A DNA stretch of 34,161 bases from Fructobacillus fructosus KCTC 3544 (GTDB taxonomy: Bacteria > Bacillota > Bacilli > Lactobacillales > Lactobacillaceae), in assembly GCF_001438695.1 (NCBI RefSeq), contig NZ_JQBH01000008.1, forward strand, positions 1-34,161, written 5' to 3'. Below the pieces are notes generated by a model. The model made no database searches, was not told the origin of the DNA, and was given only the letters and a program-made list of their open reading frames with translations. Within the stretch, counting starts at the first letter, position 1, and each line of letters starts with the position of its first letter. This document shows positions 8,319 through 12,617 of the stretch, one piece after another. A program made the position numbers and the translations under genes.

Positions 8319-9152
8319 TTAGCCAAACCACTTGTTTTCAATTTCCTTCATGTAGCCATCCTTCTTCAGCTTATCGAGTTGTTCGTTAACTTTCTTTTGC
8401 AAAGTTTTGTCGCTCTTCCGGAAACCGACCACATCGTCATCTGCTTGGAAACCGCCATCGATGATTTGGTACTGGTCGAGGGTTCCTTGCTGCTTCAAGA
8501 AGTAGCGGGCGTAATCTTCATCAACCAAGATTCCGGTCAAGCGGTCAGCATTCAAGTCCGCGAAGGCCTTGTCGAAAGTGTCATAGCCCACCGCTGTTTG
8601 GTCTTTGATGTATTGCTTTAGAATCTTTGGTTGATCAGCCAGTGCCGTTTCAGCAGAAGATTGCGTCTGCAGGCCAAGGGTTTTGCCCTTCATGTCAGAA
8701 TACTTTGTTACCCCGGAAGATTTCTTCACAACGAGGGCTAAAGGCGCGTTGTGATAGGGCTTTGAGAAACTGACTTTTTTGGCCCGATCGGCTGTTTTCG
8801 TGTAGCCGTTCCAAATAGCATCGATGTTTCCGGTGTTTAACTCCGTTTCTTTCATCGACCAATCAATTGGTTGCCACTTGACTTTGATGCCAAGGTTGTC
8901 AAAGACCTTCGTGGCCAAGTCAATATCAAAACCAACGATTTGGCCGGAAGAGTCGCGGAAGCCCATCGGAACGAAAGTGTCATCTAGCCCAATCGTGATG
9001 GTTTTTTTCTTTTCAATCTTTGACCATTGATCCTTTTTCCCAGAAGACTGACTATTGCCTGGCTTGAGCCCGACAACGAGGAGCAAAGCGATGGCACCTG
9101 CAAAGATGATTCCGATGATGCTGTTGATGATGATTTTTTTATTCTTTTTCAT
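8319..9152 (-). CDS. Amino acid ABC transporter substrate-binding protein (probable histidine)
   Basis: A 277-residue family 3 solute-binding protein: an N-terminal hydrophobic segment (residues about 8-28), then the two-lobed domain with TITIGLDDTFVPMGFRD, IVGFDIDLATKVF and the FSKPYHNAPLALVV motif. It binds a polar amino acid outside the cell and passes it to the permease. There is no Cys in the signal region, so it is not a standard lipoprotein and is probably held by an uncleaved N-terminal anchor or released by signal peptidase I. Its ATG overlaps the stop of the ATPase gene by four bases. Histidine as substrate is inferred from the T-box bulge upstream. Confidence 0.85.
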   Translation of the reverse strand: MKKNKKIIINSIIGIIFAGAIALLLVVGLKPGNSQSSGKKDQWSKIEKKKTITIGLDDTFVPMGFRDSSGQIVGFDIDLATKVFDNLGIKVKWQPIDWSMKETELNTGNIDAIWNGYTKTADRAKKVSFSKPYHNAPLALVVKKSSGVTKYSDMKGKTLGLQTQSSAETALADQPKILKQYIKDQTAVGYDTFDKAFADLNADRLTGILVDEDYARYFLKQQGTLDQYQIIDGGFQADDDVVGFRKSDKTLQKKVNEQLDKLKKDGYMKEIENKWFG

Positions 9153-9787
9153 TTTGATACCTCTTTTGTAAAGTCGAATGTGCGGTCTGAAATGGTTTTT
9201 TCAAAAGGCAAGTCATGGGTGACCACTAGTTGACTAACGCCCTCTTTTTTCAGCTGTAACATAATGCTTTCCACCTGCCTTGTTGACTGTTCGTCCAAGC
9301 CAGAAGTCGGTTCATCGTAGATGATGACTTGTGGCTCCATTGCCAGGGCTCTGGCAATCGCGACCCGCTGTTTTTGCCCACCAGAGAGTTGGTATGGATA
9401 TAAGTTGGCCTGTTCGGTAATGTTTAATTTACGGAGTAGTTCGCTTGTCTTTTGGGTGATGCTCGGTTGATCTGCTTTTTTCACGATTTTTGGTGCTAGT
9501 TCGATGTTCTCTTTCACGGTTAAGTGTGGGAAAAGGTTGAAATCTTGGAAAATGAGGGCAAACTGTTTGCTGACCTGGGGTGTTCCCACTGGAAATTGTT
9601 CGTTTTCAATGGTAATCGTGCCAGACTGGGCTTCCTCTAAGCCGGTTAGGACTTTAATCAGGGTTGTTTTCCCAATTCCGGAAGGCCCCATGACAGTGAG
9701 AATTTCACCGTCATCAAGTGTGAGGGACAGATTCTTGAAGATTGTTTTGTCACCAAATTGTTTGGTTAGGTTTTGAATTTGAATCAT
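9149..9787 (-). CDS. Amino acid ABC transporter ATP-binding protein (probable histidine)
   Basis: A 212-residue ATPase of the polar amino acid uptake family. Walker A is GPSGIGKTT (residues about 34-42), Q-loop in FQDFNLFPHLTVKENIELAP, signature LSGGQKQR, Walker B VIIYDEPTSGLD, and H-loop VVTHD. It is somewhat shorter than the usual 240 residues because the C-terminal tail after the H-loop is brief. It lies three bases after the permease gene and overlaps the binding-protein gene by four bases, so the three are translationally coupled in the order permease, ATPase, binding protein. It energises uptake from the cytoplasmic side. Confidence 0.88.
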   Translation of the reverse strand: MIQIQNLTKQFGDKTIFKNLSLTLDDGEILTVMGPSGIGKTTLIKVLTGLEEAQSGTITIENEQFPVGTPQVSKQFALIFQDFNLFPHLTVKENIELAPKIVKKADQPSITQKTSELLRKLNITEQANLYPYQLSGGQKQRVAIARALAMEPQVIIYDEPTSGLDEQSTRQVESIMLQLKKEGVSQLVVTHDLPFEKTISDRTFDFTKEVSK

Positions 9788-9790
9788 GGG

Positions 9791-10432
9791 TTACCTCCAA
9801 CGGTTTAGTTTCTTTTCACTTTGGCGTAGTAGGACGGTGACAAAGCCGGTCATGAGCAGGTAGAGAACTCCAACGATTAGGTAGGGGATGAGTGTCACTT
9901 CTCGACTAGCGGCAATGGAACCTGCTCGAAGGATGTCGCCTAGTCCAATCACGTAAATTAATGAAGTGTCCTTCACCAGATTAATCACTTCGTTACCGAA
10001 GGGCGGCACGATGATTTTGATGACCTGGGGCAGGATGATGCGGAAGAAAGACTGACTTTTACTAAGTCCCAAGACCTGAGCAGCTGCCAACTGTCCTTGA
10101 GGGATCGCCTGTAGGCCACCACGGAAAATCTCAGCTAGGTAAGCCGCATAGTTGATAATAAAGGCGAAGATAGCGGCATCAAAACGGGAAAAAGTGATGC
10201 CAACCATTGAAAGGCCGTAGTAGATAAAAATCAATTGCAGTAAGAGGGGAGTTCCCCGCATGATCCAGATATAGGCATTAATAATCCAACGTAAAACAAA
10301 GTATTCTGAACGCATGCCAATGGCAACAAGAATGCCAATCGGAATCGACCCGATTAAAGTTAAAAGAAAGACCAGAACGGTCATTTGTAAACCGGACAGA
10401 ATGCCCGGTATAAAGCTGATAAATTGTTCCAT
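9791..10432 (-). CDS. Amino acid ABC transporter permease (probable histidine)
   Basis: A 213-residue HisM/GlnP-type permease with about five membrane segments and the EAA loop (EIFRGGLQAIPQGQLAAAQVLGL, residues about 99-121) that docks on the ATPase. I start at the ATG at 10432, eight bases after GGAGA; an upstream ATG at 10456 lies in the terminator tail of the T-box and is rejected. It is the first gene after the second T-box, so transcription of all three transporter genes depends on readthrough of that leader. One permease subunit is encoded, so the channel is probably a homodimer. Confidence 0.88.
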   Translation of the reverse strand: MEQFISFIPGILSGLQMTVLVFLLTLIGSIPIGILVAIGMRSEYFVLRWIINAYIWIMRGTPLLLQLIFIYYGLSMVGITFSRFDAAIFAFIINYAAYLAEIFRGGLQAIPQGQLAAAQVLGLSKSQSFFRIILPQVIKIIVPPFGNEVINLVKDTSLIYVIGLGDILRAGSIAASREVTLIPYLIVGVLYLLMTGFVTVLLRQSEKKLNRWR

Positions 10433-10450
10433 GTTAAGTTCTCCAATAAT

Positions 10451-10707
10451 AAACAAAAACGCCCCCTAAGTATTACTACTTAGAGGGCGTTGCACGCGGT
10501 CCCACCTCATCATTCTTTCACCATCACTGATGAAAGCTCACGGCGTTTGTTAAGAACGCCTTGTCTGGTAACGGGGATTAATCCGGCGCTGGCTACTGAT
10601 ATTCACCAACACACTCCCAGGTGTGTTTCGTTCATTGTCATTGTCTACTTTCAGCTAACGTAAACTCTCTTAGAATGACTGATGAATTACTCGTCCCGGT
10701 CGTTGCT
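10451..10707 (-). ncRNA. T-box riboswitch, second copy (T2), upstream of the ABC transporter
   Basis: On the minus strand the leader contains an AGAGAG stretch and a Stem I region, the conserved T-box GAGGTGGGACCGCG (within 10492-10508), and a terminator hairpin (10458-10491) ending in TTTTGTTT before the permease ATG. The T-box bulge reads UGGG, where the variable base G would pair with discriminator C73; in bacteria C73 is characteristic of tRNA-His. In the expected specifier region the sequence is GAA-TATC-AGTAG, one base shorter than in the first copy, so a His codon is not visible here. Uncharged tRNA would favour the antiterminator and switch on transport. Confidence 0.88.
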
Positions 10708-10845
10708 TTAGATTGAATGCCTGTATGAAGCACTCTTTGATTTGTTTTCTTGCATTAAATGATGATGTCGTTGGTTGCTTTTTTTCTGGCCATGTTTTTC
10801 AAGGCCACCAAAGCACTTACTTAAAATTTCAGTTGATTCAGTCAT
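10708..10845 (-). CDS. His-rich 45-codon small ORF between two T-boxes
   Basis: ATG at 10845, TAA at 10708-10710, with GGAGAAG (10851-10857) at a good distance upstream. The peptide starts MTESTEILSKCFGG and contains five His in 45 residues, all CAT, including three in a row at residues 27-29, and many Lys/Ser/Gln. It follows the terminator of the first T-box exactly as a regulated gene would, and its stop codon touches the start of the second T-box. I do not recognise the peptide. It may be a leader peptide whose ribosome position senses histidine, a small functional protein, or the remnant of a deleted gene. Too short for standard gene callers; translation is unproven. Confidence 0.45.
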   Translation of the reverse strand: MTESTEILSKCFGGLEKHGQKKSNQRHHHLMQENKSKSASYRHSI

Positions 10846-10863
10846 CTATCCTTCTCCAATCGA

Positions 10864-11126
10864 AATAAAAACGCCCCCTAAGTATTACTACTTAGAGGGC
10901 GTTGCACGCGGTCCCACCTCATGATTCTTTTACCATCACTGGTAAAAGCTTAAGACGTCTGTTGACGTCTGGTCCGTAACGGGGACAAACCGACCTAACC
11001 TACTGATGATTCAATCAGGCACTCACGGGTGTGTTTCGCAAACCTGCTCCTTGTGATTCTCTCAGCTGTGAATCACTTTCTGTTAAGGAGGATCAGTTGC
11101 TACTCTTCCGCTCAACGTTTTAATTT
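10864..11126 (-). ncRNA. T-box riboswitch, first copy (T1)
   Basis: A second complete T-box leader on the minus strand: Stem I with an AGAGA stretch and TGCGAA loop element, T-box GAGGTGGGACCGCG (10904-10920) and terminator hairpin (10870-10903) with a TTTTT tail. The bulge is again UGGG (fits tRNA-His). The specifier region reads GAAT-CAT-CAGTAG, with the His codon CAT complementary to 11006-11008. The terminator and antiterminator segment is identical to the other copy over more than 50 bases, while Stem I has diverged. It controls the small ORF and, through readthrough, probably the second T-box and transporter. Confidence 0.88.
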
Positions 11127-11132
11127 TCATTT

Positions 11133-11161
11133 ATTATAAAACGATTCATTTTTTAATGCAA
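11133..11161 (-). promoter_or_regulatory. Promoter of the tandem T-box leader
   Basis: Minus strand: TTGCAT (11156-11161), a 17-base spacer, TATAAT (11133-11138). The predicted start is near 11126, just before T-box T1. I see no comparable promoter between the two T-boxes, so one long leader is likely. Confidence 0.75.
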
Positions 11162-11178
11162 GTTTAATTTTAAAAGAA

Positions 11179-11211
11179 ATTAAAAAGTCGCATTCCAGCG
11201 AACGCGACTTT
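11179..11211 (-). terminator. Terminator of the amino acid permease gene
   Basis: AAAGTCGC (minus strand, 11204-11211) pairs with GCGACTTT (11184-11191) around a 12-base loop, followed by TTAATTT. It lies six bases after the permease stop and insulates it from the T-box promoter. Confidence 0.8.
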
Positions 11212-11216
11212 GAGAA

Positions 11217-12617
11217 CTAATCTTTTTGTTGCAGCTTTGAATGGCGAACGCCGTAGACAAAGTAGAAGATGATACCGGCAACCAGCCAAATGGAGACCGA
11301 AGTCTTCGTAATACTTGGCAGCATGAAGATGAAACCAATGGAACAGAGGCCTGCAAAGACAGGGAGTACTGGGTACCATGGCATCTTGAAACCATCGTTT
11401 GGAATATCCTTGCGACGACGCAGTGGAATAATTCCGAATGAGATGAAGGCAAAGGCAATTAACGTTCCAGCGTTAATCAGTGAGGCAAGCTCACTAAGTG
11501 GCACAAGACCGGCAAATACGGCTTGAACAACGGTAGCGACGATGATGGCTTTATCTGGAACCCCTTGCTTCTTGGAAACATGTCCCATAGCCTTTGGCAA
11601 CAGTCCATCGCGACCAAGGGCGTAGACCAAGCGAGAACCACCAATGAACATGGTCATCATGGCGGTAAAGATACCGAAGAGGGCACCGACCGTAATCAGC
11701 TTGTTGAAAGTGGCGAGGTGTACGACTTTCATAGCGAAGGCGGCGGGATCATCGACACCAAGTTGCTTGTAGTTGACAATTCCCGTCAAAACAAATGAGA
11801 AAGTCACGTAGAGGACAACGGCGATGACCACCGTTCCAAGGATTCCACGGACAACGTTCTTTCCAGGGTTGATTGTTTCAGCTGAGTTAGCAGCCAGGGC
11901 ATCAAAGCCGATAAAGGCGAAGAAGACGGTGGCCGCAGCTGTTAGAATACCGCCCATTCCAAAGATACCGCTATGGAATTCACTTGGGTAGAATGGGACG
12001 TAGTTATCGGACTTAATGTAGAAAACACCAACGGCGATAAAGAGGATAATGATGGCGACTTTGACGACAACGGCAAAGTTTTCAACCTTTGTCGACATGG
12101 CTGAACCGCGCATAATAATGGCAGCGATAATCAACACAATGGCGACGGCCGTAATGTTAATCACGCCACCTTCCATTGGTCCAGCCTGCAGTGCCTTTGG
12201 CAAGTTAATACCGACGGCGGACAAAAGGTTATCATTGAAATAAGCAGCAAAACCGGTGGCTTCGGCTGAGACAGCCAGGAAATACTCCAGAATCAGCGAC
12301 CAACCCAGAATCCAACCGATAATTTCACCGAAGACGACCGATCCGAATGAATAGGCGGAACCGGCAACGGGCATGGCGGATGAGAATTCGGCATAAGCCA
12401 TCCCCACCATTCCCGAAACCAAAGCAGCCAACAAGAAGGCGATGGCCACGGCAGGACCAGCGTGTGAAGCCGCTTCATGGCCTGGCAAGATAAAGATACC
12501 AGTACCGATGACGGCTCCGATTCCAAGACCAATCAGATCCTTGGTCTTGAGTGTTTTTTTCAATTGGGCGTCAGCCTGCATATAGGAGCTGACGGATTCT
12601 TTTTTGAAAATGTTCAT
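11217..12617 (-). CDS. APC-family amino acid permease
   Basis: A 466-residue transporter with 12 predicted membrane segments. The first segment carries the family motif GIGAVIGTGIFILPG, the unwound substrate-binding helix of amino acid-polyamine-cation permeases; later motifs include FFAFIGFDALAANSAE and GGSRLVYALGRDGLLP, as in the YfnA/cationic amino acid subgroup. It most likely imports an amino acid with protons; the substrate cannot be set from sequence. The start ATG at 12617 is preceded by GAGAAG. It is divergent from a LysR regulator whose gene starts 104 bases away, so regulation by that protein is likely. Confidence 0.88.
   Translation of the reverse strand: MNIFKKESVSSYMQADAQLKKTLKTKDLIGLGIGAVIGTGIFILPGHEAASHAGPAVAIAFLLAALVSGMVGMAYAEFSSAMPVAGSAYSFGSVVFGEIIGWILGWSLILEYFLAVSAEATGFAAYFNDNLLSAVGINLPKALQAGPMEGGVINITAVAIVLIIAAIIMRGSAMSTKVENFAVVVKVAIIILFIAVGVFYIKSDNYVPFYPSEFHSGIFGMGGILTAAATVFFAFIGFDALAANSAETINPGKNVVRGILGTVVIAVVLYVTFSFVLTGIVNYKQLGVDDPAAFAMKVVHLATFNKLITVGALFGIFTAMMTMFIGGSRLVYALGRDGLLPKAMGHVSKKQGVPDKAIIVATVVQAVFAGLVPLSELASLINAGTLIAFAFISFGIIPLRRRKDIPNDGFKMPWYPVLPVFAGLCSIGFIFMLPSITKTSVSIWLVAGIIFYFVYGVRHSKLQQKD

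Follow-up and report, generated by a model that had tools for sequence, protein, structure and literature searches.

Between two histidine-specific T-boxes of Fructobacillus fructosus KCTC 3544, on the minus strand of the 34,161-nucleotide stretch of DNA analysed here (the window), lies a His-rich open reading frame (ORF) of 45 codons, which we read, with middling confidence, as a translated, T-box-controlled histidine leader ORF embedded in a His T-box leader. Uncharged tRNA-His would be read by the first T-box (T1), letting transcription pass upon histidine shortage; the ORF would be translated from the read-through RNA, and a ribosome facing scarce charged tRNA-His would slow or stop at a run of CAT codons. 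As the ORF ends right beside the next regulated element, the position of the ribosome relative to that end could constitute a second checkpoint on the same signal. This reading is built upon the anatomy of the ORF, its coding constraint, its exclusive use of CAT for histidine, the T-box match with its specifier, and synteny; translation, stalling and an effect on the next element would be its functional steps.

In order of transcription, the locus comprises a promoter-like site, T1, the T1 terminator, the ORF, the second T-box (T2), the T2 terminator and the genes for the permease (9791-10432; PF00528), the ATPase (9149-9787; PF00005) and the binding protein (8319-9152; PF00497, with same-locus orthologues in three relatives) of a histidine-type or amino-acid ABC transporter, all on the minus strand, and its nearest named relatives belong to Fructobacillus. 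The promoter-like TTGCAT-17-TATAAT before T1 (11161-11133) has identical hexamers and spacing in F. papyrifericola, F. durionis and CRL 2054. Since a consensus promoter scan returned nothing promoter-like between T1 and T2 (the same scan also missed the site before T1) and the TAnnnT hexamer is absent from the ORF stretch inspected, T2 would probably be transcribed only by RNA polymerase having passed T1. Besides both T-boxes, a permissive Rfam scan of positions 10400-11250 gave just four rows, far under their gathering scores.

T1 (11124-10892) and T2 (10712-10480) match Rfam RF00230 with 108.1 and 114 bits, respectively, both above the gathering score of 93 bits, which bears out the two T-boxes proposed in the earlier note on either side of the ORF. 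Each combines a CAC (His) specifier and a UGGG T-box sequence with a terminator, namely a stem of 15 pairs followed by a T run for T1 (10870-10903) and a hit of the terminator scan for T2 (10458-10491); CAC stands at the specifier place in the Rfam model alignment, placement by consensus being the reader's judgement. UGGG fits the CCCA end of tRNA-His, of which a single gene, with anticodon GTG, occurs among the loci of 30 tRNA matches in the window genome and whose discriminator is read as C from the ARAGORN sequence. At the same locus, the T-boxes of F. durionis (L060, 2402-2634) and CRL 2054 (L059, 2399-2632) bear UGGA, not UGGG; if the tRNA-His discriminator is C, this sequence should fail to pair with it. 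T1 and T2 cluster together at 86/90 support and share 56 identical nucleotides at their 3' ends, covering T-box and terminator (10455-10510 and 10867-10922 in the window), while their first three 40-column blocks, part of Stem I, are 48-56% alike; the identical 3' end next to a divergent Stem I looks like a sign of duplication or gene conversion. Elsewhere in the window genome (contig C1, 208949-212139), a second T-box stands ahead of a paralogous permease and ATPase, with neighbours resembling mreC and mreD by eye, and a T-box of this kind is present in each of the other 12 genomes of the genus.

Regarding histidine supply, three of the 13 genomes of the genus match His_biosynth strongly, with a best E of at most 4.1e-48. 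The best rows of the window genome (9.6e-6) and of F. papyrifericola (8.3e-6) lie just above the curated cut-off (24.8 and 24.9 vs. 23.6 bits) and cover just positions 148-223 of 228, and we take them as other barrel proteins. Both species are thus probable histidine auxotrophs and, the matches being weak and partial, histidine uptake probably matters to them.

The ORF itself runs from the ATG at 10845 to 10708 on the minus strand, preceded by a Shine-Dalgarno-like GGAGAAGG (10857-10850) 4 nt upstream of the start codon. The earlier note had given the ORF as 10708-10857 and credited it with a good ribosome site; the latter and the end at 10708 hold, and position 10857 proved to be the start of the Shine-Dalgarno-like sequence rather than of the coding frame. 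Its count of five CAT codons, three of them consecutive, is likewise correct: all five His codons are CAT, at codons 18, 27, 28, 29 and 43, the triplet run (10759-10767) being situated 51-57 nt ahead of the stop. The ORF had also been said to end exactly where T2 begins; the two do adjoin, and the T2 model, which starts at 10712, overlaps the final 5 nt of the ORF.

By itself, the His content is weak evidence against a chance frame: mononucleotide shuffles of the window ORF yield 1.46 His codons on average and five or more with P = 0.011, the corresponding value for the F. papyrifericola ORF being P = 0.016. Together with the shortness of the ORF, such modest values would leave room for an ORF arisen by chance in DNA or RNA conserved for reasons other than the peptide, an explanation we nonetheless regard as highly improbable considering the codon-like pattern of differences between the two species and the stops in the other frames checked. 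Indeed, stronger evidence than the His count comes from the orthologue at the same locus in F. papyrifericola (L061, 3869-3988). Aligned from the ATG without gaps, the two peptides share IL...FGGLEKHG...HH, and over codons 2-19, where 21 of the 54 bases differ, pS reaches 0.97 for a dN of 0.27, i.e. synonymous sites are saturated. The FGGLEKHG block holds five synonymous changes and no other, and the differences fall on codon positions 1, 2 and 3 in the numbers 5, 4 and 12 (19 codons). When the same differences were relocated at random in 20,000 trials, with created stops counting against a trial, the observed amino-acid score was reached with P = 7.5e-4 for codons 2-19 and P = 1e-4 for codons 2-29. 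Stops interrupt both other forward frames as well as the single reverse frame inspected. Across these two sequences, on which the whole coding test rests, the ORF displays the amino-acid-level constraint of a small-protein gene. Some ascertainment is inherent in the test because the relative was found via amino-acid similarity (E 6.4e-4, one genome); synteny and the position of the ATG lie outside that similarity search.

The F. papyrifericola locus starts with the same upstream amino-acid permease gene, followed by one T-box whose specifier place reads CAC, a 39-codon ORF and, directly after it, the binding-protein gene; two fetched loci of this species (L022 and L061) bear the same ORF and neighbours. 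There, the ORF has its own ribosome site, five CAT codons and an ATG placed as in the window, the distance from the end of the T-box model to the ATG being 47 nt in both (10892 to 10845 in the window, 3822 to 3869 in L061). Its His codons lie 36-66 nt ahead of the stop, which precedes by 1 nt the AAGAGG Shine-Dalgarno of the binding-protein gene. In either species, the ORF thus finishes against the next element under regulation: T2 in the window, and in F. papyrifericola the ribosome site of the binding-protein gene. The earlier note had proposed looking for conservation in relatives, and F. papyrifericola answers it with the preserved ATG position, CAT codons and preceding T-box, as well as the low dN relative to pS. 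Since this species keeps the same small gene behind the same type of T-box, the ORF probably represents a genuine control element that is translated, and not an accidental frame or a leftover. Of note, permease and ATPase are missing from the F. papyrifericola locus (L061, 3501-4831), although T-box, leader ORF and binding-protein gene are retained; the binding protein may work with the second His transporter, encoded at another place in this genome.

The corresponding locus of F. durionis and CRL 2054 is devoid of the ORF, a single T-box standing there immediately ahead of the permease, and the portion of the ORF beyond codon 29 aligns poorly with F. papyrifericola. Both observations could speak for a decaying remnant, either of a gene formerly under T1 control, as the earlier note had suggested in the alternative, or of an older T-box-ORF arrangement, without function in the window species. 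Such a relic is unlikely: the frame, the ribosome site and the distance to the ATG are kept, and the amino acids remain constrained in spite of the base differences accumulated over codons 2-19. The binding-protein tree is close to a star (window, F. papyrifericola, and F. durionis with CRL 2054), which is compatible with an ancestral ORF that underwent a single loss as well as with a single gain.

As to its distribution, a two-row profile gave a match at E <= 0.1 in 29 of 397 family genomes, convincing in just two, namely the window species and F. papyrifericola, the next best (E 0.0039) having internal stops. Among the 29 loci retrieved by the ORF searches (L028 and L139-L166), T-box cores occur in five, and only in F. 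papyrifericola does the core lie upstream of the match, on the same strand and within 600 nt. A weak peptide row in another genome of the genus (E 0.236) was discarded, the T-box core being absent nearby. A distant blastn search of plasmids returned no relative of the ORF, and none of 79 pattern matches of the two-row alignment to viral contigs was confirmed. When 110 fetched loci (L029-L138, partly mutual duplicates) with 144 T-box cores were screened for ORFs containing at least four His codons downstream of a core, nine rows were obtained, two of which are the F. papyrifericola ORF; the seven others are unlike it and were set aside, two from F. durionis falling inside the permease. Within the window genome, the loci of all 25 T-box matches were screened with a core motif that missed some T-boxes and also matched outside them, and the ORF is the only complete frame that starts with ATG, spans 20-60 codons, carries a ribosome site and lies no more than 120 nt from a core; two more rows are truncated by the end of the locus. 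Tandem T-box cores gave no pair in 80 named loci with the strict motif, which would miss variant cores, and among the four loci compared at this position a T2 behind the ORF is found in the window alone.

Regarding codon choice, His is encoded by CAT in 10 of 10 cases across the window and F. papyrifericola ORFs, two counts that are not fully independent because three His positions are aligned. In samples of long ORFs from the two genomes, CAT makes up 207 of 484 His codons (42.8%; window genome, 59 ORFs) and 115 of 377 (30.5%; F. papyrifericola, 51 ORFs). Set against the other third-position T/C codons within the same ORF, the preference gives P = 0.076 for the window, which is not significant, and P = 0.0028 for F. 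papyrifericola (Fisher test). CAT is decoded by the GTG anticodon of tRNA-His through wobble; as a queuosine enzyme family (TGT) is present, CAT need not be decoded slowly.

The FGGLEKHG block is more strongly conserved than the His run, suggesting that the peptide may have a role beyond codon counting. In ordinary attenuator peptides, it is mainly the codons that are needed, and a nascent-chain or small-protein role is thus conceivable. The ORF could then be the gene for a small, functional His-rich protein belonging to the histidine-uptake operon, e.g. a transporter partner or a metal or His binder, the T-box merely timing its synthesis to His shortage. IL...FGGLEKHG being kept at the amino-acid level where synonymous sites are saturated, the ribosome site of its own and a layout that implies cotranscription with the transporter would all suit such a protein. 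We consider it possible but doubtful, since a His-rich product appears ill-suited to conditions of His shortage, CAT-only usage points to decoding, and neither peptide has a useful family match. Searched with the two peptides, Pfam gave at best E 0.052 (13.5 bits vs. a cut-off of 27), NCBIfam nothing, PHROGs a best row of E 0.042 spanning 12 residues, and solved structures a best row of E 1.5.

Returning to the leader-ORF reading, the way in which ribosome position might bear on the next element was approached through RNA pairing. The duplex between the ORF and Stem I of T2 (-22.6) is no better than those of synonymous (-23.9 +/- 2.4) or mononucleotide (-30.5 +/- 4.5) shuffles, and an RNA attenuator made by the ORF with T2 was accordingly rejected. 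Alternative hairpins controlling a terminator, as in his attenuators, did not emerge from pairing with T2 Stem I, to which this comparison was confined, and both terminators flanking the ORF are those of the T-boxes. The proposal of the earlier note that a pause at the CAT run alters the folding of T2 thus finds no backing: T2 lies behind the ORF in one of four loci and the pairing does not exceed shuffles. From the layout, a ribosome finishing at 10708 would be beside, or on, the foot of T2 Stem I. One may imagine from this a double gate on one signal in one transcript, where T1 senses uncharged tRNA-His and the CAT run senses charged tRNA-His via ribosome speed, and where a stop-bound ribosome at 10708 blocks T2 antitermination from the foot of Stem I, T2 opening only upon an upstream stall. 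We give this elaboration little credence, gating of T2 through ribosome stalling being unsupported because the ORF-T2 pairing does not beat shuffles.

In F. papyrifericola, the binding-protein ribosome site is predicted to be mostly paired (0.18 unpaired in free RNA). With a ribosome modelled at His codons 24-28 under an assumed footprint, the site is uncovered and its exposure unchanged (0.18), which would argue against simple derepression by stalling; a ribosome modelled at the ORF stop covers the site, again with a footprint of assumed size. In the same species, the end of the ORF together with the binding-protein ribosome site finds a complement of 15 consecutive pairs in the stretch that follows the T-box terminator (L061, 3838-3996). 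This complementarity (-13.0 vs. -7.1 +/- 2.1, P = 0.008 over 500 mononucleotide shuffles) was picked after seeing the fold and serves as a lead only.

In the at (rtpA) leader of B. subtilis, a run of Trp codons belongs to a leader ORF ending near the ribosome site of the next gene. F. papyrifericola has this very layout, with the ORF stop by the ribosome site of the regulated gene, whereas in the window the stop abuts T2 instead. Both Fructobacillus loci share with the at operon a T-box for one amino acid and, behind it, a leader ORF in which the cognate codon is repeated in a run. T-box control and tRNA-dependent ribosome stalling in a leader peptide, the latter regulating translation, are combined in the B. 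subtilis anti-TRAP operon (PMC11255114). The view of the earlier note that no such system had been described therefore goes too far, although the anti-TRAP leader, as presented there, is without a second T-box. Differences are otherwise clear: the at operon is concerned with Trp and a regulator, whereas the present leader is concerned with His and a transporter and holds an ORF of 39-45 codons with a conserved peptide block, followed in the window by a second T-box as next element.

Tandem His T-boxes precede histidine transporter operons in five Enterococcus species, and the two T-boxes ahead of a histidine ABC transporter in the window resemble them; an ORF between the Enterococcus T-boxes, as found in the window, goes unmentioned in the portion of the article available (PMC9413887). 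The same article describes His leader-peptide attenuators in some other Firmicutes (PMC9413887), and the ORF resembles those of the E. coli type in that it is a short frame within a his-related leader and contains a run of His codons, and departs from them in that window ORF-T2 Stem I pairing does not exceed shuffles and the flanking terminators belong to T-boxes. The literature search, which covered few subscription papers, found nothing on Fructobacillus T-boxes, and no His leader ORF behind a T-box appeared among the matches listed. How tandem T-boxes act is still unknown according to a review (PMC7583486), and the present locus offers a natural case where the element between two of them can be mutated. 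By analogy, the arrangement in the window can be regarded as the T-box and leader-ORF type already known from B. subtilis, varied in amino acid, lineage and next element. If this holds true, it would constitute a further case of a T-box coupled to a translated codon-run leader, for another amino acid and in another lineage, and one where such a leader is placed ahead of another T-box.
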